This document shows positions 9,854-22,351 of a stretch of DNA of 22,351 nt, piece after piece. Every line of letters begins with the position of its first letter. Positions within the stretch are counted from its first letter, which is position 1. Location of the stretch: positions 1 through 22,351 of IMG/VR virus record IMGVR_UViG_3300027791_000147; one strand, given 5' to 3'. Source of the DNA: a virus. A program made the position numbers and the translations under genes. The notes beneath the pieces are model-generated. The model was not told where the DNA came from, searched no databases, and saw only the letters and a program-made list of their open reading frames with translations.

Positions 9854-12800
9854 ATGGCAGAAGCTAAAAACAGTTTCATCAAATCTAAAATGAATAAAGA
9901 TTTAGATGATAGACTTGTACCAAATAACGAATACAGAGATGCTTTAAACGTAGCTGTATCTAGATCAGAAGGAAGTGATGTTGGAGCTTTAGAATCTATA
10001 CTTGGTAACGAGATGATAATTGATGCATCTAATATTAAGGCACAAGTAATAGGAGTTAAAGTTGATCAAACAAGAGCGTTAGCTTACTACTTTTTAAGTG
10101 ATTATAATGGAACCGGCAAAGCGCCTTTAAGCTCTTACTGTGCTATAGCTGTATTTAATACATCTAGTAATTCTAGTCAAGTATTAGTTTCTGGAAGTTG
10201 GCTAAATTTTTCTAAGAAATCCATAATGACTGGTATTAGTTTAATAGAAGATCTTTTGTTTTTTACTGACAATAGAAATCAACCTAGAAAAATAAATGTA
10301 ACAAAAGACTTTGGATACTATACTAGCGAAGATCAAATATCTGTAGCTAAATTCGCACCTTACAAAGCGCCTGAGTTTATAGATCTAAGATCTACAGCAG
10401 CACTTAAGCCATCTACAATGTCAGATGCTAGCGATCCTCTTCAAACTACAATAAATTCAGTTGTTTTTTCAGCTGTAAATTTAAATACTTCTAAATACAG
10501 AAATGGTGAAACTATACCTGAAGCTCAAGATGCATCCGCTTGGAGTGATGCCGCTACAAACAAACAAGGAGCTTGGTGTTATTATGAAAACTCTTTAGCT
10601 AATGGCTCTGTTTATGGTAAACTATATAATAGATACGCTGTAGAAGACACTAGAGGCTTAGCACCTGTTGGCTTTTCTGTAATAAGCACTGGAGTTTATA
10701 CAAGTGACATTGTAACTGGTACCGGTGGTGCAACTCGGTTAAAATCACAAACAACTTGGGATGCTTTACCAGGGACAAATACCACAGGTTTTAATGTTAA
10801 AGCTGGAGGTTATAGAGATGTTAGTGGTTTTGCTGGATTAGGAACTAGTGCTCGACTGTGGGCTAAAGATGACTCACCTGTTTCTCCTATAGCAGCCACT
10901 GGTAATTATGTAGAAATGACTTCAACAAATCAAGATGATGCGATACTAAGTGCAGCTCCTGATGCTGACAGTTTTAACGGGTATTCTGTTAGACTTCAAA
11001 AAGATTCTGCATATAATGGCTGGAACGGTGATCCAGATTATTTAACAGATAAATTTGTAAAATTCAGTTATAGATTTAAATACGATGATAATGAATATTC
11101 TGTTGTAGCTCCTTTTAGTCAAGATGTTTTTATTCCAGAACAAGAAGGTCAATTTTTAAACGACGACGAGACAAAAGCTTTTGTTTCAACTGTTGTAGAG
11201 TTTATGCAGAATGTTGTAAACAATGCTGTTTTAAACATAGAATTACCTAGTCTAGATGTTTTAATTGACTACAAAATAAAGGGTATAGATATATTATTTA
11301 AGCAATCAGATAGACAAGCTTATCAAATTTTAGACTCTGTTGTTATTGACCAAACATTTATAGATAACTTAAACAATACTAATATATATCAATACGATTA
11401 TCAATCAACATTACCTATTAAAACTTTACCACCTGGTGAAGCATCTAGAGTGTTTGATAAAGTTCCAGTCACAACTTTAGCTCAAGAAACTTCTGGTAAT
11501 AGAGTAATGTACGGCAACTTTGTTCAAGGAAAAAGTGGTCAAAAAGGTTTAGATTATTATGTGGATATTGTAGATAAAAGTAATCAAGTTTTTGAAGAAT
11601 ATCCTCAGCATTCTTTAAAGCAAAATAGAAACTACCAAGTAGGTATAATACTTGCTGATAAATTTGGTAGACAAACAGATATAATATTGTCTAATTATGA
11701 TAATTTATTAGATTCTGTTGGAGATCCACAACCAGGATCAAATGTTTTTAGTGATTACAGTAACGTTTCATTCAACGGCTCTGTAGCTGGGTGGCAAGGA
11801 GATAGTTTAAATCTTAATTTTAACAGTTTAATACCTGAATCCGCAAACGCAAACAATGTTGGTGGTTATCCTGGCGCTTATGCTGTAGGTAACTATTACA
11901 CTATATCCGTTTCTTCTTTAAATTTCCCTATATTTTTTAGAGACTTATCAACCCAGTCTATAACAGCTACCGCCGCTCAAACGGTTTTTACGTTTAATGG
12001 AATAACAAATTGGGCTGTAGCGGCTAATACTTATAGTGTTTATAAAAATCAAAATGATGGATTTATTAAACTAACTGAAGGCGCAACAAATGATTATACT
12101 ATAGCTGACGATGGTAGTGGTAGTCCAGTTGTAACACTTGTTACAGGTGCAAACGTTGGTAATGTTATTAAGTTTGAATTATTATTTACTGAAAACAATT
12201 ACTATAAGTACCAAACAGGCACAACAGACTCAACAAAACCTTTGTTTGCAGAATTTGCTGAATTTTATAGTAAGTACTTTCTTATAGGTAAAGAATTTGC
12301 AGGATTATTTACCGACTATGTTAATATAGAAAATGTTAACCCTTTACCTGGAACTAACTTACCAACGTCTGTTGAATTATACACTAACGGTGAGGTTGCT
12401 GAAAAATATTTATTTGATCAGACAGCAACTGGAAGACCAGAACCTCGTTTGTTAGCTAGTGAATTACCTAGAACGTACGCCACTTATGATATAAATGTAG
12501 ATGGGTTTTATAGTTTTAGAATAGGTATCAAACAACAGCAACAAGATTATTACAACGTATATCTTCCTGGTATTGTAAATGGATATCCAATAAACGGCTC
12601 TATTTTAGAGCAAGGTGAAACTGCGTTTACTACGTTAGTATCTGATAATATAAACAAAATTCCTAGAAACTTACAAGAAGTTGGTCCTTTACAAAATCAA
12701 TTTACTAGCGACGAGAGAATGTTTGGTAGAGTTACAAACACCGTTGATGTAACCACTGGTGGTGTTACATATAGAAACACTCAGTTCGACCCATCTTCTT

Positions 12801-14785
12801 CTGCAGATGATGTAGATTTAATTGGTACTATTAGCGACGTTTTTCCTAGCTTAGAGTTTAACGCTGCTACTGTTGACAAAGGAAACCCTTTTTGCATATA
12901 TGATTTTGATACAAAGCCTTACGTGGCTAAGATATCTACTCAATTAGCTATAGGTGTTACTGAAGATTTATTTGGAACTCCAGTAGCAGGGTACGAGTAT
13001 CCTAGCGTTATGGGATTAGCTATATTTGAAACTACTCCTTTTATTTCTCAATTAGAATTGTTTTATGAGGCTACAACCACTGGTTTAATATCTGATTTAA
13101 ATTATGGAATTCAAAATACTACAGGTGGAATAAATGGTATAAGTATAGGTGACGCTACTTTCTCAGAATCAGCATTTAGTGGAACTCGTGTAACCTCTGA
13201 CTTTTTTCCAACAAGTGGCGGTCAAATAGATCCTACGTACAACGCTGTATTGTTATCTGCTTTTAATTACTCGTATGGTACTACAAATTTAAATGCTACT
13301 AACTACGCTACTCCAGGTGTTAATCAAAGGTTTTCTTTACAACCTGGCTCCGCAAATGGTAGTTACAAAATACAAACAGAGTCTACTTTTTACGCTGGTT
13401 CGATAAATGAACAAGGAACTGATGTAGAATATGCTGGAAAATATCTTGCTACAATAAGATTTACTAACGCGGCTGGTGTTGTTGTTGATCAAACTATAAC
13501 GCTTCAACTTGTTAATTCAGCACCTACTATTACACCAACAGCAAATCCTAATCCAACAGGATTTCCTAATAATGAAGCATTGTTTTTGACAAGCAATTCT
13601 CCAAAAGGTTATAATGGTAGTGCTGCTGATCCTTCAACGACTGGTGTACCAGGAAATGCTAACTGGGCAACATTTGATCCACCTGGTTTTGGTTGGAGTA
13701 TTCAATCTATACAAACAACAAGCCCTGCGAATCCACCTGTAATAACACAATACACTACACCAGCAACTATAATACAAGTAGCTAAACTTGCAGCAAATCA
13801 AACTGTTGCCGGTGATGCTTTAAGGTTTCAATTAAACTCTGTTAATGGCAATGCAAACACTCCAGGCTTTGCCTATGTGATAGTTATGAAACTAACAGAT
13901 ACTAGAGGAGCTTCAACTACTACAACCATAGGTTATAGCGTTGCGGCTGCAACTTATGCAAACACTGAAGTAGCTATGACATATTATACTTCTGGAACAG
14001 GTTTTACCAATGTCGATACAGGTATGACTCAAAACCTTCCGTTGGCTGCTATTGCAACAGGTGTTAATAATCCTGTTCCTCCCAGATTTATAGGTCAAAT
14101 TCAGAACTGGACAACTGGTGATGTATATATATCAGCTAGAATGTCAGTAAGTCCAGGCGTAGGTGTGGCTAGTAATGGTTTTTCAGCTAGAATTGGAAAC
14201 GTAGCAAGAGCTGACTTCCCTAGTGGTGGTACTATAGGTGAAAGACTAGATGGTGTTAATAACACGGGTGCTGGGTATTCACTTTACAATGCTACGGTAT
14301 TCAACTGTAATCCACAAGGGGTAACAGGACCTTTTGAATTCTGGACTGGTACTTTTATGAAATTAAAAAAGTTTGACGCTAATGATGGAAGCCCTGCAGG
14401 TAACACCCTTATAAACGCTGGCGTTAGACCAGGTCAAAGAAACGTTGGTGGAGGTTTAGGTAATTATGATTTTGTAGATTGCGCTGTTGTTAATTTTGCT
14501 GCTAGTATATCTGGTGGTAGTCCTGACAGTAGTGGTCAATTACCTCCAAACAGCAGAACTTCTCTTGTAAATACTTTCTTTCCTAGAGTAGAGTTTTTCT
14601 GGTCGCCAAATTTTACAGCTACAGGGCAAGCACCTACAGCAAGCACACGCGTAAACTTAGCTAGTTTGATTGATGCTCCGCAATTACCTTTTTATCCAGA
14701 TGCAATAGGAGGTTCAAATTTTGCAAATTCTCCCTCGGCAAATACTCTTGTTCCTGACGCGGCACAAGGACCAACAGGTAACTAG
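9854..14785 (+). CDS. Giant tail stabilization/muzzle-type protein with inserted FISUMP and Ig-like modules
   Basis: The 1643-residue product is the largest complete one here and probably forms the distal tail barrel that gates DNA. Conserved pieces are KMNKDLDDRLVPNNEYRDAL plus SEGSDVGALESILGN near the N-terminus, FTDNRNQPRKIN at 137-148, FVKFSYRFKYDDNEYS near 400, PRNLQEVGPLQNQFTSDERM from 937, and SQLELFYEATTTGLI near 1065-1080. I associate these with tail stabilization proteins of crAss-like and marine podoviruses. Inserted between conserved parts are a FISUMP domain (about 204-383) and a small fibre-type beta module (about 708-778). Residues 1090-1643 are Thr/Ser/Asn/Gly-rich and beta-predicted, with Ig-like strands near 1193-1222, and probably face the host. 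The end is the only TAG stop in the window. The variable regions may be adhesins; that is inference. Confidence 0.8.
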   Translation: MAEAKNSFIKSKMNKDLDDRLVPNNEYRDALNVAVSRSEGSDVGALESILGNEMIIDASNIKAQVIGVKVDQTRALAYYFLSDYNGTGKAPLSSYCAIAVFNTSSNSSQVLVSGSWLNFSKKSIMTGISLIEDLLFFTDNRNQPRKINVTKDFGYYTSEDQISVAKFAPYKAPEFIDLRSTAALKPSTMSDASDPLQTTINSVVFSAVNLNTSKYRNGETIPEAQDASAWSDAATNKQGAWCYYENSLANGSVYGKLYNRYAVEDTRGLAPVGFSVISTGVYTSDIVTGTGGATRLKSQTTWDALPGTNTTGFNVKAGGYRDVSGFAGLGTSARLWAKDDSPVSPIAATGNYVEMTSTNQDDAILSAAPDADSFNGYSVRLQKDSAYNGWNGDPDYLTDKFVKFSYRFKYDDNEYSVVAPFSQDVFIPEQEGQFLNDDETKAFVSTVVEFMQNVVNNAVLNIELPSLDVLIDYKIKGIDILFKQSDRQAYQILDSVVIDQTFIDNLNNTNIYQYDYQSTLPIKTLPPGEASRVFDKVPVTTLAQETSGNRVMYGNFVQGKSGQKGLDYYVDIVDKSNQVFEEYPQHSLKQNRNYQVGIILADKFGRQTDIILSNYDNLLDSVGDPQPGSNVFSDYSNVSFNGSVAGWQGDSLNLNFNSLIPESANANNVGGYPGAYAVGNYYTISVSSLNFPIFFRDLSTQSITATAAQTVFTFNGITNWAVAANTYSVYKNQNDGFIKLTEGATNDYTIADDGSGSPVVTLVTGANVGNVIKFELLFTENNYYKYQTGTTDSTKPLFAEFAEFYSKYFLIGKEFAGLFTDYVNIENVNPLPGTNLPTSVELYTNGEVAEKYLFDQTATGRPEPRLLASELPRTYATYDINVDGFYSFRIGIKQQQQDYYNVYLPGIVNGYPINGSILEQGETAFTTLVSDNINKIPRNLQEVGPLQNQFTSDERMFGRVTNTVDVTTGGVTYRNTQFDPSSSADDVDLIGTISDVFPSLEFNAATVDKGNPFCIYDFDTKPYVAKISTQLAIGVTEDLFGTPVAGYEYPSVMGLAIFETTPFISQLELFYEATTTGLISDLNYGIQNTTGGINGISIGDATFSESAFSGTRVTSDFFPTSGGQIDPTYNAVLLSAFNYSYGTTNLNATNYATPGVNQRFSLQPGSANGSYKIQTESTFYAGSINEQGTDVEYAGKYLATIRFTNAAGVVVDQTITLQLVNSAPTITPTANPNPTGFPNNEALFLTSNSPKGYNGSAADPSTTGVPGNANWATFDPPGFGWSIQSIQTTSPANPPVITQYTTPATIIQVAKLAANQTVAGDALRFQLNSVNGNANTPGFAYVIVMKLTDTRGASTTTTIGYSVAAATYANTEVAMTYYTSGTGFTNVDTGMTQNLPLAAIATGVNNPVPPRFIGQIQNWTTGDVYISARMSVSPGVGVASNGFSARIGNVARADFPSGGTIGERLDGVNNTGAGYSLYNATVFNCNPQGVTGPFEFWTGTFMKLKKFDANDGSPAGNTLINAGVRPGQRNVGGGLGNYDFVDCAVVNFAASISGGSPDSSGQLPPNSRTSLVNTFFPRVEFFWSPNFTATGQAPTASTRVNLASLIDAPQLPFYPDAIGGSNFANSPSANTLVPDAAQGPTGN
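10463..11002 (+). other. FISUMP (TIGR02145-type) domain within the tail protein
   Basis: Residues about 204-383 of the giant tail protein match the course of the Fibrobacter succinogenes major paralogous domain. It opens with VNLNTSKYRNGETIPEAQ, continues with YGKLYNRYAV (254-263), RGLAPVGFSV, a Lys-Ser...Trp element (RLKSQTTW), TGFNVKAGGYRDVSGF, and closes with NGYSVRLQKD (near 375-384). The family is found mainly in surface proteins of Bacteroidota and Fibrobacterota and is thought to adopt a C-type-lectin/FGE-like fold. In canonical members the closing motif ends SVRC; here the Cys is Leu. Flanking tail motifs on both sides show that it is an in-frame insertion. Confidence 0.75.
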
Positions 14786-14820
14786 GTTAATAATAAAAAA
14801 AACAAGTAATAATAATATAT

Positions 14821-16128
14821 ATGGGCTTCCAGATTCAAGTAAAATACTATAATACTTATGTATTAAAAAGATTGGCAGTGTCTTCGATTCAGGATAGAAA
14901 CTGGTATATTGAAGAAGCTAGAATAAGAGGTGGATATAATAATGTTCAAACTGGTCTGTCTCCAAGAGCTTTTTTGGTTTCTGAAAATAACGCTCAAGAA
15001 ACTTTAAGTAATTCTATTATATACTCTGGAATATTTAATTCTAGAACTGGTATAAATCAATCTAACCAATTTCCTTCTGGACAAGATATAACTAGAACCG
15101 TAGATCCTTCTAAAGGTAGTATACAAAAGTTGTATGCAGAAGATACTAACTTAACTATATTTCAAGAAAGAAAAGTGAACAGAGCTTTGATAGACAAAGA
15201 CGCGATTTATACTCAAGAAGGAGTACCTGTTCAAACAACCTCAAATGTTGTAATTGGTGCAATAACTCCATATGCTGGAGAATTTGGTATTTCAACTAAT
15301 CCTGAAAGTTTTGCTGTGTATGGATATAGAAAGTATTTTACAGATGCAACACAAGGATCTGTTTTAAGACTGTCTCAAGACGGTTTAACTGAAATTTCAA
15401 ACTATGGTATGTATGACTTTTTTAGAGATCAACTAGGATCTTTATCAAGCGGTAAAGCTATAGGTGGTTATGACATACATAACAAATGTTATACACTATC
15501 TTTACAACCAGCATCAGCTGCTATAGCCTCAGAAATACTTAGCTTTGACGAAAACATTAAAGGTTGGACAAGTAGATATAGCTACCTACCAAGCAACATG
15601 TTTAGTATTCAGAATAATTTTTATTCTACAACTACTTCTGATGAAAAAGCAAACAATCCTAGCGTTACAATTGGAGATATATACGAGCACTATAGCACAA
15701 ACGTTAATAGAGCTAATTTTTATAAAACTCAATACGTTAGTCAAGTAAAAAGTGTATTTAATGCAAACCCTTCTTTAGTTAAAACTTTCCAAACAATAAA
15801 CTACGAAGGTGCGCCTAACTGGTCTATGACTAGCTTTGTAACAAATGAAGACCAAGCTAATAGTGTAGATGTTTTTAGCATGCCATTAACACTAGCTGAC
15901 ATGGAAAACAGTTTACTTAAAAATGAATTTAAACAAAAAGAAGATAAGTACTTTGCAAACTTAGTTAACACATCTGCTTTCACTCAAGGTGAAGTTGTAT
16001 TTGGAAAATCAATATCAGGTGTTAAAGGATTTTTTGCAACTGTACTCTTAGAAGCTACAAACACAGCGGTATCTGGAACTAATGAATTATTTGCAGTATC
16101 AACAAATTATAAAGAATCATCTTATTAA
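14821..16128 (+). CDS. Tail protein, partner of the giant stabilization protein
   Basis: A 435-residue structural protein. The N-terminus (VLKRLAVSSIQDRNWYIEEA) leads into EARIRGGYNN (32-41), then IIYSGIFNSRTGINQSNQF (66-84), GSIQKLYAEDTNL (99-111), FQERKVNRALIDKDAIY (114-130) and YAGEFGISTNPESFAVYGYR (151-170). I associate these with tail proteins of crAss-like and marine podoviruses, where they occur with or next to the stabilization protein. It therefore probably assembles with the product of the preceding gene at the tail tip. It lies 35 A/T-rich bases downstream, with no Shine-Dalgarno sequence and no hairpin between them. No enzymatic motif was seen. The exact position in the tail (hub, nozzle or stabiliser) cannot be told from sequence alone. 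Confidence 0.72.
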   Translation: MGFQIQVKYYNTYVLKRLAVSSIQDRNWYIEEARIRGGYNNVQTGLSPRAFLVSENNAQETLSNSIIYSGIFNSRTGINQSNQFPSGQDITRTVDPSKGSIQKLYAEDTNLTIFQERKVNRALIDKDAIYTQEGVPVQTTSNVVIGAITPYAGEFGISTNPESFAVYGYRKYFTDATQGSVLRLSQDGLTEISNYGMYDFFRDQLGSLSSGKAIGGYDIHNKCYTLSLQPASAAIASEILSFDENIKGWTSRYSYLPSNMFSIQNNFYSTTTSDEKANNPSVTIGDIYEHYSTNVNRANFYKTQYVSQVKSVFNANPSLVKTFQTINYEGAPNWSMTSFVTNEDQANSVDVFSMPLTLADMENSLLKNEFKQKEDKYFANLVNTSAFTQGEVVFGKSISGVKGFFATVLLEATNTAVSGTNELFAVSTNYKESSY

Positions 16129-16134
16129 AATCAA

Positions 16135-16542
16135 ATGAAATTAGAAGCTAGAAGATTAACACACGACGATTACGACACGCTTGTAGAATGGTGGAGCGCT
16201 TGGCCAGAATGGGTACCATTAGGTAGAGATTTATTACCTGAAAATGGAACAGGTGGTATCATGGTAGAGCAAGACGGTAAACCTTTAGTTGCTGGGTTCT
16301 TATATGGAACAAACTCAAAAATAGCATGGATGGAGTGGATTGTTTCTAATCCAATAGCAAAAGTAGATAAATCAGAAGCTATATTATTATTAATATCTTC
16401 ACTAGAACAATGGGCTCTTGAAGGTGGATTTAATGTAGTTTTAAGTATAGGCAGAAGTAAAAGCCTTATAGATAAACATAAAAAATTAGGATACACGGTT
16501 GACAAAAACCCTTCCTATGAAATAACTAAAAAAATTCAATAA
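16135..16542 (+). CDS. GNAT-like (N-acetyltransferase fold) protein
   Basis: A 135-residue protein with the outline of a GNAT fold: an opening strand (KLEARRLTHDDYDTLVEWW), central strands (GGIMVEQDGKPLVAGFLYG, IAWMEWIVSNP), a long helix (EAILLLISSLEQWALEGG), and a closing HKKLGYTVDKNPSYEI that resembles the final motif of GNAT enzymes. The usual acetyl-CoA pyrophosphate loop (Q/R-x-x-G-x-G/A) is not clear, so activity is uncertain. Similar small proteins occur among structural genes of marine podoviruses, as I recall. It starts six bases after the tail gene, and its TAA overlaps the ATG of the next gene by one base, which implies translational coupling. It could modify a virion or host protein, or be a non-enzymatic structural relative. 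Confidence 0.7.
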   Translation: MKLEARRLTHDDYDTLVEWWSAWPEWVPLGRDLLPENGTGGIMVEQDGKPLVAGFLYGTNSKIAWMEWIVSNPIAKVDKSEAILLLISSLEQWALEGGFNVVLSIGRSKSLIDKHKKLGYTVDKNPSYEITKKIQ

Positions 16543-17510
16543 TGGCAGTAGTAGCAGCAGTAAGCGCAGGTGTTTCCATAATAGGAGGCGCAGTAGCAGC
16601 AAATCAAGCAGACAAAGCCGGCAAAAGAGCTGGTAGAGCAGCTAGAAACGCTAGAGAAGAAATGGACAGAATAAAAGCCAGTAGAGTTCCTATAACTAAT
16701 CCTTACGCTGGTAATACTAACTTGTCTAGTTTAGCTACTAATTTAAGTGATATGATTTCTAATCCTTTTGCTAATCTTTCTGTAGCTACACAAGCTTCTG
16801 AAATACAAATGGAACAATCTGATATGGCTTTAGCTAACTCATTAGAAACATTAGCTACAACCGGTGCTAGTGCGGGTGGCGCAACAGCATTGGCTCAAGC
16901 TGCTTTAGCTAGTAAAAAAGGTGTTGCTGCAAGTATAGAGCAACAAGAAGTTAATAATGAAAAACTAAGAGCACAAGGTGAGTCTCAAATGGAGCGTATG
17001 CAAATGCAAGAAGCTCAAAGAATACAAGGAGTTCAAATAGCAGAAGGTCAAAGAATGCAAACACAAATGGCCGCGGGCAATCAGTTCCAAACACAAATGA
17101 AAGAATCTAGAACTAATTCTGATTTAGGTAGAGCCGCTGGTCAAGAGCAGCAAGCAATGGCAAATCAAGCTTCTGCAAATCAAGCTCAAGCTCAAGCTTG
17201 GGGTAGTGCAATAACCGGTGTTACTAACGCGGCGACAGCAGGTTTAGGTTATAAAGGAGCGGTTGATTCTGCTGCTGCAGGAGCCACTACAGGAAGTGAC
17301 AGAAGATTAAAGAAAAACATAAAATCAATAGGCAAGTCAAGTAGTGGATTAAAGATATATTCTTTTGAATATATAGATAAAAAATACGGTGAAGGAATTT
17401 GGCAGGGTGTTATGTCTGATGAAGTACCTGTTGACGCAGTAATAAAACATCTTGACGGGTACGATAGAGTAGATTACTCTAAGATTGATGTTCAATTTAA
17501 ACAAATTTAA
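16542..17510 (+). CDS. Virion protein with short C-terminal peptidase S74 (intramolecular chaperone) domain
   Basis: A 322-residue protein. The N-terminus (VVAAVSAGVSIIGGAVAANQ) is a hydrophobic Gly/Ala segment that could insert in a membrane. Residues 25-250 are Ala/Gln/Met-rich and helical, with Gln-rich repeats (MQMQEAQRIQ, GQRMQTQM). Residues 252-322 form an S74-type domain: SDRRLKKNI (252-260), LKIYSFEYIDKKYG, WQGVMSDEVP and GYDRVDYSKI. In the family the chaperone drives trimer folding and cuts itself off at the start of this motif; cleavage at Ser252 would leave about 251 residues. The domain is short (71 residues) and lacks the long C-terminal helix of endosialidase-type chaperones, so cleavage is uncertain. 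Composition suggests an internal or ejected virion protein rather than a tail fibre. It is coupled to the upstream gene through a TAATG overlap. Confidence 0.75.
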   Translation: MAVVAAVSAGVSIIGGAVAANQADKAGKRAGRAARNAREEMDRIKASRVPITNPYAGNTNLSSLATNLSDMISNPFANLSVATQASEIQMEQSDMALANSLETLATTGASAGGATALAQAALASKKGVAASIEQQEVNNEKLRAQGESQMERMQMQEAQRIQGVQIAEGQRMQTQMAAGNQFQTQMKESRTNSDLGRAAGQEQQAMANQASANQAQAQAWGSAITGVTNAATAGLGYKGAVDSAAAGATTGSDRRLKKNIKSIGKSSSGLKIYSFEYIDKKYGEGIWQGVMSDEVPVDAVIKHLDGYDRVDYSKIDVQFKQI

Positions 17511-17513
17511 AAC

Positions 17514-19187
17514 ATGAGCGCATACGATAACCCAACAATAATACAAGACCTTTACGGCTCAAAAGCATGGGCTGCCGCGGCAGGACAGGTAAATGAAGCG
17601 TTAGCTTCTGGTTTAGACACCATGGTAAAAAATAGAGAAAAACAAGCTGATATAGTTGCTGCTAAACAAAAGATGTACAATAAGTCTTATGTTCAAGCTG
17701 AAATAAAGCAAACAGAATTAGCTAATACTAATTTTTCTTTAATGGAAAGTGAAGGAAAACCTCCAGGGCTTATAGAACAAGCTCAGCAATTATCAGAATA
17801 TGAAATGTATGGAGGTGTTCACACTTACAACGGCGTTGAAAAAGACTATGGTATTGGATCAATAAAAGCTATGGCTGAGGTTAATGCAAATCTAACTCTT
17901 GATCCTGATCTTAGGAAAAAATATCTTAAGTTAGCAAATGAACAAAAAGCAAATTTAACAAACGCTTCAAAAGAAGGAGCTTTGGTTTTAACAGATGAAA
18001 AAACAGCTCAAGCTGTGCTTTCTGGTGATCCAAAATCTTATTGGTTTGGAGACAGTGAAGAAGAGAAGTATACTAATTACTTAGTTGCTAGTGGTTTATA
18101 TAATAAAGAAATTGGAGGCGGGGTTGAAATTACTAAGAAATACAATAGAGAACAGGTTAAAGGAAAAAGCAATAGCATATTAGATGTGCAAATAAAAATA
18201 CCAGTAGGCTCTGTACAAGCAGAAGCGTACAAAGATGACCAAGGATTTAAAAAAGGCGTTAATGTTAAAGACGGTAATATAATTATTGATTGGAAAAGAA
18301 ATTTAACAGATGGATCTTGGGATGGTAATCTTGCTCAAACATCAACTGTAGAAGCTATTGATTACAATGCTATAAACAAAGATAATGGCTCTATAGTAAA
18401 TGGAGAACTTAGCAAAGCATATAAGCATCAGTTAACAGGTACGGTCACAAAAGGAGATACACAAGATCAAAAAGAAATATTAACTTTTGTAAACGTGGAT
18501 GGCTTTATTAATGGTGCGGATAAAACTATTCAAGCCAGAGCAGATACTTTAGCTCAAATGGCTTTAACTGGAAGCAAAGACGATAAAGGAGACGTTTATC
18601 ATTATTTAGAAAGTATTGGTTATGCAGGAATAAATTATGCTCAAGGAGTAAAAGATGGAACTGTTTCAAAGGAAACGGTATCTACAGCATTTAAGCAATA
18701 CATTCAACAAGACATGCTAAGTCATTATAATCTAGGTCAAGAAAGAAATGGTGAAGGTAAGTTTGTAAACCAAAAAGTAAATGGCTTAGCGTTATCAACA
18801 AGAACTATAAACCAAGATCAGATAGATGAATTAGAAAAAAACGGTGTTGACGTTAGTAATATTAAAGCTGGAACAGAACAATATTTTTATGTAGATGCAA
18901 AATCAACTGATAAAGAATCATCTGGTAGTAATAGAGGCAATTCTAGAAATAAAACAGTAGAAGAGATACTTTTTAGAAACATATCTAAAAAAATAAAATC
19001 TGGTAACTTAGATGCCTTTAATAGTATACAAAGTACACCTGGAGGAAAAAGTTTCTATAAAAAATTTCCAGTTCAAGGTGTCAACCCAGCTGGAGTATAT
19101 GAAGTAAATTCAGACGGTGATAAAGCCGAAAGATCTCAGCCAGTTCCATCATCAATATTGCAATCAATATACAGTGTGTATAACTAA
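17514..19187 (+). CDS. Probable internal virion protein, unknown family
   Basis: A 557-residue protein I do not recognise by motif. The first 100 residues are helical and Ala/Lys/Gln-rich (WAAAAGQVNEALASG, REKQADIVAAKQKMYNKSYV). The middle (about 200-320) is mixed and beta-rich with many Asp, Lys and Asn residues, and the C-terminal third is charged, with a Ser/Asn-rich linker near SGSNRGNSRNKT. No signal peptide or membrane helix is visible. It sits three bases after the S74-domain gene and 14 bases before a very large gene. In podoviruses, large helical proteins in this position are usually internal virion or ejection proteins. That role is inferred from order alone. The ATG is preceded by an A-rich sequence and lacks a Shine-Dalgarno motif. 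Confidence 0.62.
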   Translation: MSAYDNPTIIQDLYGSKAWAAAAGQVNEALASGLDTMVKNREKQADIVAAKQKMYNKSYVQAEIKQTELANTNFSLMESEGKPPGLIEQAQQLSEYEMYGGVHTYNGVEKDYGIGSIKAMAEVNANLTLDPDLRKKYLKLANEQKANLTNASKEGALVLTDEKTAQAVLSGDPKSYWFGDSEEEKYTNYLVASGLYNKEIGGGVEITKKYNREQVKGKSNSILDVQIKIPVGSVQAEAYKDDQGFKKGVNVKDGNIIIDWKRNLTDGSWDGNLAQTSTVEAIDYNAINKDNGSIVNGELSKAYKHQLTGTVTKGDTQDQKEILTFVNVDGFINGADKTIQARADTLAQMALTGSKDDKGDVYHYLESIGYAGINYAQGVKDGTVSKETVSTAFKQYIQQDMLSHYNLGQERNGEGKFVNQKVNGLALSTRTINQDQIDELEKNGVDVSNIKAGTEQYFYVDAKSTDKESSGSNRGNSRNKTVEEILFRNISKKIKSGNLDAFNSIQSTPGGKSFYKKFPVQGVNPAGVYEVNSDGDKAERSQPVPSSILQSIYSVYN

Positions 19188-19201: not shown

Positions 19202-22200
19202 ATGGATACTTATATATTAAATGGCGTTGAAGTCTCTGCTGAGCAACTAGCTAGTTATGCTAGAGCAGCAGGTATCTCCTTAGAACAGTTTAAGGAAGAC
19301 AACGGTGTTACGGTTAAATCTAGCGATAAAGTTAAAGAAGAAGAAACTTTTTATGATTGGGAGGGAAAGCAAATTGTTGCTGCAGCAGGGGATGTGGCTG
19401 TGGCAACAGAAGTAGACGAGACATCCGCTTTGGAATCGAAGTTGGAAGATATTTTATTGGAATACAAAGAAGTTGAATCAGGAGGTATTTTAGGTGATTT
19501 TTATGATGGCAGTAGAGCTGGTAAAATGCTTCTTGACAAAAAACGTAATGATGTAAAAAGAAAACTAGAAAAAGCTTACGAAGGTTCGAAAATGGACATT
19601 AATAAACCTATGTCTATTATAGATAAGTCAGAAGAAGAAGTTGAAGATTTACTTGTTGATACTTATCCTGGATTATATGTGGAACAAACCGGCATGAGAA
19701 ACGCGCTTAACATAACTCTTCCTGGTAGAAGCGAACCTTTAGAGTTGGATTTACAAGCGTTTACTTTAGATGGTAGAGACGAAGCTGTAAATGTGTTAAA
19801 TGAAATAGATGAATTTTATAAAAACCAAACAGATGAAGAAATAGTTACAAACAACTTAGGTGGTTTAGCTGACGTTTCAGAAAGAGAAGGTACTACTAAA
19901 ACTATAAATAAAGCTTTAGAAGGAACTGGATATGAGGTAGAAAAAAATGATAACTCTGGTACTATATATGCTGATGATGGAAACTTTTTTACAGGTTTTG
20001 ATAACATGTATGACATATTTAAAGACGGAGAACTATTAAAAGAAGTTAATCCAGACGAGCTTAGAAAGTTTATGTCTAATGAATTAGGTGATGAAGCTTA
20101 TGGAATTATTAAAAAAAATGCTTATCAAGCTACTAGTGATTATTTAGAAAAATATGCTAGAAAAGAAAAAGAAGAATCTAAAGTAATACAAAACGACAAA
20201 TCAATAGATTTAAATTATCTTGAAAATAGATTTGAAGAAGATTTAGTAAATTCACTTAATTTAGCTTTTCCTAATGAAAAACTAACAAAAGATGAACTTA
20301 AAGAAATAAGCAAGCTTTTCAAAGACGAAGCCGCTGGTACTTACGAGTTTAGTGGAGAGGTTGACTCTAAGCCTACAAAAGTAAATAGAAGTTTAGAAGA
20401 TAGAGTTAACGCTTTTACTGGAACTGAAGGTATATTAAGTAAATTGTCACCAGAGCTTAAAGCTAAAGTAGAAAGTTTAGGTATAAGTTCTCTTCAAGGT
20501 TTATACGAATCTGGTGTAAAGAATTTAAAAGCAGAGGAACTATTTAATAGATCAAAAACTATTCACGAAAAATTAATGGCTAATTCTGGAAACGCAGATT
20601 TTTTAAAATTTGGTCAGGACATAGCTAAGATTGAAAAAAATGTATTTGAAAAAAATATTAAGGCTGAGATTTTAGAACTACCTAAGGTACATGAGAATCA
20701 ACTAGCGTCTGTGTTAAATACTAGATTGAAAGAATTAGGAAAAGATGCTCCTAAAGACACTAAAATAAGTATAGAGTACACACCTAATGGAGAAGCTATT
20801 TTTAGCGTAACAAATGATAGAAACTTAAGTACAGAAGAAGGGAAAAAACTTAAAGAAGTTCAATCAAACATGTATCGTCTTCAACAAGACTACGTAAATC
20901 TTAATCAAGATTATTCTGCTACACTTAACAACATGCGGACTAAGGTTAATGATTTTTATGCTGACAACCCTGTTAATGCTGACGTCTTTAAAGCGTCTAT
21001 GAAAGAGTACGGTTTACCTGAATTATTTGCTAAAGACGTTAATGATGCTTTTGCAGGTATTGCATTATCTATACCTACCTTGTTTAACGCTGATTGGGCT
21101 GTTGAACAACAAAGAAGATTAAACGCTAAGAATGAGTTTTTTGAAACAATGGGTACTTATGATGATGGTAATTTTGGTACTTATTTTTTTAGAACAATAG
21201 GTCAACAATCAGCAAATATAACTTTAGCTATAGCAACAGGTGGTGCGAGTTCAGCTGCTGGTTTAAGTACTGCTATGACAGCTAATGCTATTGGTGGATT
21301 ATTTGGTATATCATCAGGTACTCAAACTTATAGAGATTTAAAAACCCAACAACAAATAGTTGGAACAGCTGATGAACAAGCTAAAATAGCATTACAAGCT
21401 TATCAAGATGGTAAAATTGATTTATATACTTATACTAATTCTATGAGAGATATAAATAAAACCAAAGCCATGACTGAAATAAGCGATGACCAAATACTAA
21501 ACGCTGGAGTTGCTAATGGTATAATAGAGGGAACATTCACTAGGTTTTTAGGTACTGCACCTAACACGATAAAACTTTTAAAAGATTTTAAATCACCTAC
21601 TTCTATAACAGCTATTTCTGATGCTTTTGGAAAAAGTAATTTTTCTAAAATAAATAGTTTATTAGTCAATCCTTTATTAAAGCGAGGCACAGGTGAAATA
21701 CTAGAAGAAGAATTAATATACGGTGGACAGCAATATTTTACAGAGTACGGTATATTAGATAGAGATTTAGATCTAAGTGCTTGGGACGACACGGCTATGT
21801 CAACAATAGTAACATTAGGTGTTTCTCAAAGCCCTGGCGTTGCTTATTCTGGCATGGTAAATTATGGCGCTACAAAGAAATTTGAAAAAGCAGTAGGAAG
21901 TCTTAGAATAAACACTAACGAGTTAAGCTCTTTAATACAAAGCTCAGATATAAGTGACAAGCAGAAAAAGCTTTTACTTAATGATATATCTGAAAATCTA
22001 AAAGAGCAAGGTCTAGAGGTTGATAGACTAGCTATAGATATGTTAGGCCTAGGAGCTAAAGACGTTAAAAGATTAATTGGAACTGAATTAATTAGATCTC
22101 AATTTCTTAGATCTATTGGCGTAATGCCTGGTATGTCTGAAGTTGACAAAGCTGAAGTAATAGCTGCTCATAAAAAAACATTAAACAAAGATGATCTTAA

Positions 22201-22351
22201 GCTTTTTGAAACACAAATAAGCTCTTTAGATGCAACTACAAAAAAAATAAAAGATAAAAAAACAAACTTAAATCTTGCTGAAGAAAGTTTAGGTGATGTA
22301 TTTAAAATTAATGATGCTATTCTTAGTAAGTCAAATAAAGACGGATATAAT
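19202..22351 (+). CDS. Large internal virion (ejection-type) protein, 3'-truncated by window edge
   Basis: An open frame of 1050 codons without a stop to the right edge, beginning MDTYILNGVEVSAEQLASYA. It follows the previous stop by 14 A-rich bases with no Shine-Dalgarno sequence. The first 600 residues are charged and mainly helical, with many Glu and Lys. Residues about 671-706 form a hydrophobic Ala/Gly/Thr-rich segment (LAIATGGASSAAGLSTAMTA) flanked by polar sequence, which could insert in a membrane. The rest is again charged and helical. Size, composition, membrane-active-looking stretch and last place in the structural block fit an ejected inner-core protein analogous in role to T7 gp16, but no lysozyme (transglycosylase) motif or other enzyme motif is visible in the portion shown. 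The C-terminus is unseen. Codon use agrees with the neighbours. Confidence 0.72.
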   Translation, partial: MDTYILNGVEVSAEQLASYARAAGISLEQFKEDNGVTVKSSDKVKEEETFYDWEGKQIVAAAGDVAVATEVDETSALESKLEDILLEYKEVESGGILGDFYDGSRAGKMLLDKKRNDVKRKLEKAYEGSKMDINKPMSIIDKSEEEVEDLLVDTYPGLYVEQTGMRNALNITLPGRSEPLELDLQAFTLDGRDEAVNVLNEIDEFYKNQTDEEIVTNNLGGLADVSEREGTTKTINKALEGTGYEVEKNDNSGTIYADDGNFFTGFDNMYDIFKDGELLKEVNPDELRKFMSNELGDEAYGIIKKNAYQATSDYLEKYARKEKEESKVIQNDKSIDLNYLENRFEEDLVNSLNLAFPNEKLTKDELKEISKLFKDEAAGTYEFSGEVDSKPTKVNRSLEDRVNAFTGTEGILSKLSPELKAKVESLGISSLQGLYESGVKNLKAEELFNRSKTIHEKLMANSGNADFLKFGQDIAKIEKNVFEKNIKAEILELPKVHENQLASVLNTRLKELGKDAPKDTKISIEYTPNGEAIFSVTNDRNLSTEEGKKLKEVQSNMYRLQQDYVNLNQDYSATLNNMRTKVNDFYADNPVNADVFKASMKEYGLPELFAKDVNDAFAGIALSIPTLFNADWAVEQQRRLNAKNEFFETMGTYDDGNFGTYFFRTIGQQSANITLAIATGGASSAAGLSTAMTANAIGGLFGISSGTQTYRDLKTQQQIVGTADEQAKIALQAYQDGKIDLYTYTNSMRDINKTKAMTEISDDQILNAGVANGIIEGTFTRFLGTAPNTIKLLKDFKSPTSITAISDAFGKSNFSKINSLLVNPLLKRGTGEILEEELIYGGQQYFTEYGILDRDLDLSAWDDTAMSTIVTLGVSQSPGVAYSGMVNYGATKKFEKAVGSLRINTNELSSLIQSSDISDKQKKLLLNDISENLKEQGLEVDRLAIDMLGLGAKDVKRLIGTELIRSQFLRSIGVMPGMSEVDKAEVIAAHKKTLNKDDLKLFETQISSLDATTKKIKDKKTNLNLAEESLGDVFKINDAILSKSNKDGYN

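Follow-up and report, generated by a model that had tools for sequence, protein, structure and literature searches.

We found that a 322-residue protein encoded in the window (i.e., the whole stretch of viral DNA analysed here, 22,351 bases long) ends in a short S74 domain from which the C-terminal helix is missing. The domain carries the catalytic residues of its family, its gene occupies the slot of an ejection gene, and the same module is present in some relatives of the protein and absent from others. The explanation that we consider the best, and put forward tentatively, is that the domain acts as an optional, assembly-gated and self-removing tag on a gp14-like ejection protein, and that same tentative explanation makes the phage itself a podovirus that has a muzzle of the crAss type and is related to Flavobacteriia phages.

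Identity and extent of the S74 domain

S74 is a folding sensor of trimeric fibres and is known mainly from tail fibres. An earlier reading of the window, made from its letters and open reading frames (the sequence-only reading), had proposed a 71-residue S74 domain at 17295-17510, and the comparisons described here bear this out. The domain spans 71 residues (residues 252-322; 17295..17507, + strand), from codon 252 (Ser), which begins at position 17295, up to the stop codon, whose last base is 17510. Used alone, these residues matched the Pfam family PF13884 with 25.2 bits (E 2e-5; cut-off 22); the whole 322-residue protein scored just below the cut-off (21.8 bits), and a six-frame search of the window gave 24.5 bits. 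Further loci were obtained by a search with four close S74 domains, in which 113 stretches passed and the best 80 were kept (henceforth the window-type loci). Among 70 window-type domains, 58 matched PF13884 at E<=0.01. A profile of these 70 domains aligned with a profile of fibre-type S74 domains (24 of 50 fibre-type domains, fetched separately) at 96.2% in hhalign, and a profile of 10 diverse short S74 domains from different phages, which align with the S74 domain of the window, did so at 98.8%, whereas none of 20 column-shuffled controls exceeded 2.4%. The diverse profile also found solved S74 chains, namely 6f45 (long tail fibre distal subunit; E 7e-5), 3gud (neck appendage protein; E 1e-3) and 7dc3 (MyRF; E 0.01); the narrower profile of 70 window-type domains found no S74 chain in the PDB. 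Based on these sequence comparisons, we regard it as confirmed that residues 252-322 form a real S74 domain.

The long C-terminal helix, which the sequence-only reading had described as absent, is indeed missing. In the profile alignments, the short domain covers residues 1-82/83 of a 117-residue fibre reference and then stops, and the missing remainder of the reference is its helix-forming end. The distance from Ser to the end of the protein is 70-78 residues in the 80 window-type loci (the best 80 of 113), compared with a median of 96 residues in 80 fibre-type loci, only one of which has 80 residues or fewer. Given that most domains of either kind have a spacing of 37 between Ser and a conserved Gly (31/50 long and 62/68 short domains), the shortening lies at the C-terminus, with 33-41 residues following the conserved Gly in the window type versus 50-77 in the fibre type. 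AlphaFold2 modelled the 71-residue domain as strands without a C-terminal helix (pLDDT 92.5), and Foldseek and VIA searches with this model gave no S74 structure among the matches listed, none of which was significant (best Z 3.3). The domain is homologous in sequence to S74/ICA domains over their core and lacks the C-terminal helix that forms a triple coiled-coil, which is why we file it as a helix-less variant and not as a canonical ICA domain.

Gene order and identity of the protein

The window carries a head and tail module (identified from the ORF list and from Pfam and PHROG scans) with a terminase (phrog_6681), a portal (phrog_6547), a virion structural protein in the capsid position (phrog_13704) and further structural families (phrog_14543 and phrog_13977). 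Matches to its portal, none of them reaching 60% identity, occur in 87 phage records (68 of Flavobacterium, 15 of Cellulophaga, 2 of Tenacibaculum, 1 of Maribacter and one genome from spring water). From position 9854 onwards, the genes described here all lie on the + strand and follow the order muzzle-type genes, GNAT-like gene, S74 gene, 557-residue gene and giant ORF. The order starts with a 1643-residue protein (9854..14785) that is muzzle-type by position only, and homologues of which occur upstream of S74 genes in other loci. It is followed by a 435-residue protein (14821..16128) corresponding to the C-terminal part of a muzzle-type protein (Pfam crAss_MUZ_C, E 9e-12; phrog_14478, E 1e-48). 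Across 9854-16128 the muzzle therefore appears to be split, the 1643-residue gene preceding the gene with the muzzle C-terminal domain, and the latter matches an inner part (935-1257) of the 1474-position PHROG profile. The GNAT-like gene (135 residues; 16135..16542; phrog_17252), which directly precedes the S74 gene, had no Pfam match, and its family profile matched acetyltransferases weakly (1mk4, E 9e-4; 3f8k, E 4e-3). In MW202675 and in Rhizobium phage RHph_I3_18, too, an S74-bearing ejection-type gene is immediately preceded by an annotated acetyltransferase or N-acyltransferase gene. The S74 gene itself (16542..17510; phrog_6121, virion structural protein, E 2e-10) is followed by a 557-residue protein (17514..19187), gp15-like by position only, which had no significant family match in Pfam or PHROG and no homologue among neighbouring ORFs at E 1e-4. 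The last gene is a giant ORF of more than 1050 residues (19202..22351) that runs off the end of the window and is gp16-like, again by position only.

By its place in this order, after the nozzle and gene 13 and before the gp15-/gp16-like genes, the S74 gene occupies the slot of T7 ejection gene 14, and T7 genes 12-16 show an order comparable to that of the window. No homology to T7 gp13 or gp14 was detected (hhalign gave 0.2% against the single sequence of T7 gp14), meaning that the comparison with T7 rests on gene order. In Cellulophaga phage phi40:1, genes gp097-gp101 have the same order as in the window and are all five annotated as structural from MS/MS; the body profile matched gp099, which carries no S74, at 94.3% (E 1e-7; one sequence on the gp099 side). 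The window type and gp099 are bridged by locus L083, where a body matching the gp099 family (phrog_13764) ends in a short S74 domain.

The body of the window protein (residues 1-251; 16542..17294, + strand) combines, going by its composition, a hydrophobic N-terminus with an Ala/Gln-rich, probably helical stretch. In agreement with the sequence-only reading, the Gly/Ala N-terminus is hydrophobic (Kyte-Doolittle 19-residue maximum of 2.1 at residue 1) and Gln makes up 10.8% of the 251 residues. A hydrophobic N-terminal segment is a feature of gp14-like proteins and was likewise found in 46/51 relatives (Kyte-Doolittle values of at least 1.6 within the first 40 residues). In the full-length AlphaFold2 model the body is mostly helix at low confidence (mean pLDDT 55), which makes this model unusable for arguments about oligomers. 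The body is conserved in a 22-row alignment (the window, L001 and 20 of the 25 loci L022-L046, near-copies being left out), and the S74 part is missing from 18 of those rows. Gene order, the match to gp099 and the existence of annotated S74-tailed ejection proteins (see below) support fairly well that the 322-residue protein is a gp14-like ejection protein. The earlier suggestion of an ejection-type protein stands on these three grounds, and we infer from it a location inside the virion and a function in ejection.

Predicted active site

Autocleavage of S74/ICA domains is described as depending on trimers and on a dyad of Ser and, five residues further on, Lys (S587/K592 in MyRF, S911/K916 in endoNF), with the residue following Ser also being of importance (PMC8326128, PMC3742443). 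In MyRF, G626 is needed (PMC3742443), and trimerisation is driven mainly by the C-terminal coiled-coil, mutation of which blocks cleavage (PMC8326128, PMC3742443). The corresponding residues in the window are Ser252, Asp253, Lys257 and Gly289. Ser252 (17295..17297, + strand) is the predicted nucleophile, equivalent to endoNF S911 and MyRF S587, with the predicted cut immediately before it. Lys257 (17310..17312, + strand), five residues further on as are endoNF K916 and MyRF K592, is the predicted catalytic lysine. Gly289 (17406..17408, + strand) is invariant in the window-type alignment and probably corresponds to MyRF Gly626, judging from the alignment of the diverse profile to solved S74 chains.

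Ser, Asp and Lys are kept in 80/80 loci (the best 80 of 113; 68 distinct domains), which had been located by patterns from other parts of the domain, and ten columns are invariant among the 70 window-type sequences. The fibre-type set is uninformative on this conservation, as the pattern by which the fibre-type Ser was found itself requires Ser and Lys. A motif before the predicted cut was sought in the 70 sequences and none was found (G in 12, A in 12, F in 8, L in 7, and others). The sequence-only reading had also raised the idea of a self-cleaving tag. The retained Ser/Lys pair speaks for this idea but the domain lacks the coiled-coil on which cleavage of MyRF depends, and the cleavage itself is one that we predict from comparison. 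In our analysis, the loss of the coiled-coil appears as the chief puzzle and the main argument against cleavage.

Occurrence among related loci

Analyses of the body used 67 distinct proteins, as three of the 80 window-type loci are incomplete at the 5' end and a further 10 are copies. Within these loci (the best 80 of 113), a homologue of the 1643- or 435-residue muzzle-type protein lies at most four ORFs upstream in 67/80, and the gene directly upstream matches the GNAT-like gene of the window in 36/80; 12/80, some of them fragments lacking upstream sequence, have neither neighbour. The next gene encodes 380-760 residues in 64 of the 70 loci with a readable second downstream gene.

The short S74 form also occurs on proteins of other kinds. 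In L068-L070 it ends a fibre-like protein of 834-836 residues with a collagen-like N-terminus, of which L065 is the cut end, and in L084 (4736-7213) and L096 (4721-7213) it ends a protein of 826-831 residues with a BACON domain. By eye, the stretch just before S74 in the latter two resembles a self-splicing domain of the Hint/intein type; BACON and S74 were the only matches that Pfam gave at E 0.05. The helix-less form occurs outside phages as well: four bacterial genome contigs (L135, L137, L143 and L148) encode small proteins that end in a short S74 of 64-73 residues and whose N-termini, by eye, resemble signal peptides. A 768-residue protein in L134, a contig binned as Candidatus Pelagibacter MED605, also carries a short S74 at its end, 79% identical to the query family; this 10.7-kb contig may be viral. 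Finally, in MW202675 (L009:5176-8733) a short S74 lies within a protein of 1185 residues (at about residues 277-340) and is followed by an SLT transglycosylase domain; a cut at this S74 would divide the protein in two.

Presence and absence of the domain, and selection on it

A search with L001 yielded 26 contigs, in 5 of which the protein has an S74 end (three distinct proteins) and in 21 of which it does not. Most tail-less proteins end soon after the conserved body, while in L030, L033 and L036 a different end is found. The clearest pair consists of L026, which continues into S74 after GNFVTAKAGMP, and L045, which ends two residues later. We also considered whether S74 could be supplied in trans in the tail-less relatives; it was found elsewhere in none of the 21 records, possibly fragments, at E 0.001.

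To describe the distribution of the domain we used a 51-row tree of bodies (33 of 68 bodies, with profile E <1e-50 and the window included, plus 18 tail-less rows), which does not separate gains from losses. On this tree the S74 label needs 7 changes, at least 6 of which are forced by well-supported branches; on the smaller 22-row tree, there are 4 changes for 4 tailed rows. None of 500 shuffles on the 51-row tree needed as few changes, meaning that the label is clustered and the domain partly inherited. Identity of the body and identity of the domain were weakly correlated (Mantel rho 0.11, with 120/999 permutations as high), which fits exchange but is weak evidence, given that 71 residues carry little signal; with the label clustered, pure free exchange is not supported either. 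Tail-less proteins had a median length of 253.5 residues (n=18) versus 251 residues up to Ser in tailed ones (n=33; P 0.55), a match that would be expected from removal of the tail and equally from a tail that had only been added. In all 12 close pairs for which it was defined, the dN/dS ratio of the domain was below 1, and in 8/12 the body had the higher ratio; these pairs share rows. In these alignments and trees, S74 behaves as an optional module that comes and goes within the body family.

Short S74 tails in other phages

Searching the phage collection by tblastn with the window protein and with its S74 part gave no match at E 0.01, and with the whole protein none at E 10, whereas the homologue L001, searched up to E 10, matched 15 records, of which five had E <=0.01; judged by the window query alone, the protein would thus have passed for an orphan. 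In some unrelated phages, namely Salmonella phage 7-11 and relatives, Cronobacter phage A24, Pseudoalteromonas phage H6/1 and Vibrio phage PVA1, short S74 domains were found on proteins whose annotation reads DNA ejection, injection or ejection protein, several of these matches (Salmonella, Cronobacter) having E >=1 and resting on alignment, on Pfam for 7-11 and on PHROG. At least four PHROG body families carry a short S74 (phrog_6121, 4287, 598 and 13764). The 7-11 protein scored 20.5 bits against Pfam S74, below the cut-off of 22. In its family, the match covers at least 80% of the query in 26/34 records and extends only to residue 278 in eight Aeromonas records; in Aeromonas phage LAh_9, the one of these eight that was scanned, the 'DNA ejection protein' (L133:2938-4146) had no Pfam S74 match. 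The tail may be optional in a second family too, that of the 7-11-related ejection proteins.

The different use of the S74 domain that the sequence-only reading had suggested is plausible in the light of these cases, but it is not unique to the window, as databases already annotate such proteins (e.g., 'putative ejection protein' with the note pfam13884). A review of jumbo phages has S74 serving fibres, spikes and 'other proteins' (PMC7824862), and an acetyltransferase and a chaperone of endosialidase are among the genes common to two phage clusters (PMC10783043). In the text available to our literature searches, we found no paper linking S74 with ejection proteins: the link is absent from the accessible text of PMC3909814, PMC7824862, PMC10386132, PMC10783043 and PMC8954989, and in the last of these, a review of ejection proteins, so is the term 'S74'.

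Proposed mechanism and alternatives

Under the explanation we favour, a helix-less S74 domain would have been fused as an optional module to the C-terminus of an ejection protein, where it would restrain the aggregation-prone body during assembly or aid its oligomerisation. With the trimerising helix of the module lost, the bodies would assemble through their own long helices, and their assembly would complete the Ser252/Lys257 sites. The chain would then cut itself between Gly251 and Ser252, leaving a mature protein of 251 residues, the size of natural relatives without the module. Activation by oligomerisation, gating by assembly, cleavage and removal of the tag are thus the steps that we infer. 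In a broader form, about which we are more tentative still, mobile helix-less S74 domains would be assembly-gated, self-removing tags that have been repeatedly gained and lost across at least four PHROG body families, with the cut serving as an ejectosome checkpoint; the helix would have been lost so that the active site is completed only when the helices of the ejection protein assemble.

The main rival to a self-removing tag is an uncut, stable cap that would dock the C-terminus on the portal, the gp15-like or the muzzle protein, or act as a plug, and would be unfolded and ejected together with the body. We regard such a cap as less likely than the tag. It is favoured by the absence of the trimerising helix needed for cleavage of MyRF, by the confidence with which AlphaFold2 folds the single domain (pLDDT 92.5) and by the compact C-terminal domain that binds the portal in crAss001 C1 (PMC10172136). 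Yet a cap would have no need of the Ser and Lys kept in 80/80 loci (the best 80 of 113), and as the domain is absent from 21/26 related contigs, docking would have to be dispensable.

An external location, as a tail fibre or adhesin in which S74 has its usual fibre role, seems improbable to us for this protein. Its body is Ala/Gln-rich, 251 residues long and devoid of fibre domains in Pfam and PHROG, its gene slot and its match to gp099 point away from fibres, and the fibre-type loci that we fetched have a longer end (median of 96 residues from Ser). These observations have to be set against the collagen-like 834-836-residue (L068-L070) and the 826-831-residue (L084, L096) proteins that end in the same short domain, and against a match of the window protein to phrog_1980 'tail fiber protein' (E 2e-4). 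More improbable again is a passenger or remnant without function, even though the domain is absent from many relatives and its identity hardly tracks that of the body (Mantel rho 0.11): its length is held at 70-78 residues in 80 loci (the best 80 of 113), ten columns are invariant in 70 sequences, and dN/dS is below 1 in 12/12 pairs and below that of the body in 8/12.

A uniform helix-less S74 set in the slot of channel-forming ejection proteins would uncouple cutting from fibre folding, and would point to a processing step in the assembly of the ejectosome. Pairs such as L026 and L045, natural relatives of which one has the domain and the other lacks it, permit direct testing.

Comparison with known systems

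The window domain resembles the S74/ICA domain (PF13884) of endosialidase NF, phage fibres and MyRF in its sequence homology, its Ser-Asp start, the Lys five residues on and the conserved Gly. It corresponds to the N-terminal two thirds of that domain. Unlike the S74/ICA domains of fibres, it has no C-terminal helix and sits on a small Ala/Gln-rich protein instead of a beta-structured fibre.

T7 gp14 is described as a water-insoluble protein that is the first core protein to be ejected and forms an outer-membrane pore (PMC8954989). As with gp14, the window protein has a hydrophobic N-terminus and its gene sits between a GNAT-like gene and a gp15-like gene; its body of 251 residues is near the 181-240 residues reported for gp14-like proteins (PMC8954989). 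By contrast with gp14, to which no homology was detected, it has an additional S74 tail. It shares its gene slot and a body profile match with gp099 of Cellulophaga phage phi40:1 (phrog_13764), although gp099 has 200 residues and no S74 tail; phi40:1 carries S74 on gp085, a 976-residue tail-region protein.

In crAss001, C1 (gp45; 90.8 kDa) is encoded right after the muzzle gene, has been proposed to be ejected first, and has a predicted N-terminal transmembrane helix and a compact C-terminal domain bound to the portal; the main text of that paper, in the part accessible, does not contain the term 'S74' (PMC10172136). The window protein is like C1, compared by position and described anatomy only, in its slot after the muzzle gene and in its compact C-terminal domain. 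Finally, S74-tailed proteins of about 320-410 residues are found in phrog_4287 ('DNA ejection protein'; Grimontviridae, Salmonella phage 7-11) and phrog_6121 ('virion structural protein'; Rhizobium and Microcystis phages). Unlike in the window, the bodies of these examples fall into other PHROG families and their function is that of their annotation, but they have in common with the window protein a short C-terminal S74 and a place in a tail/ejection gene block.
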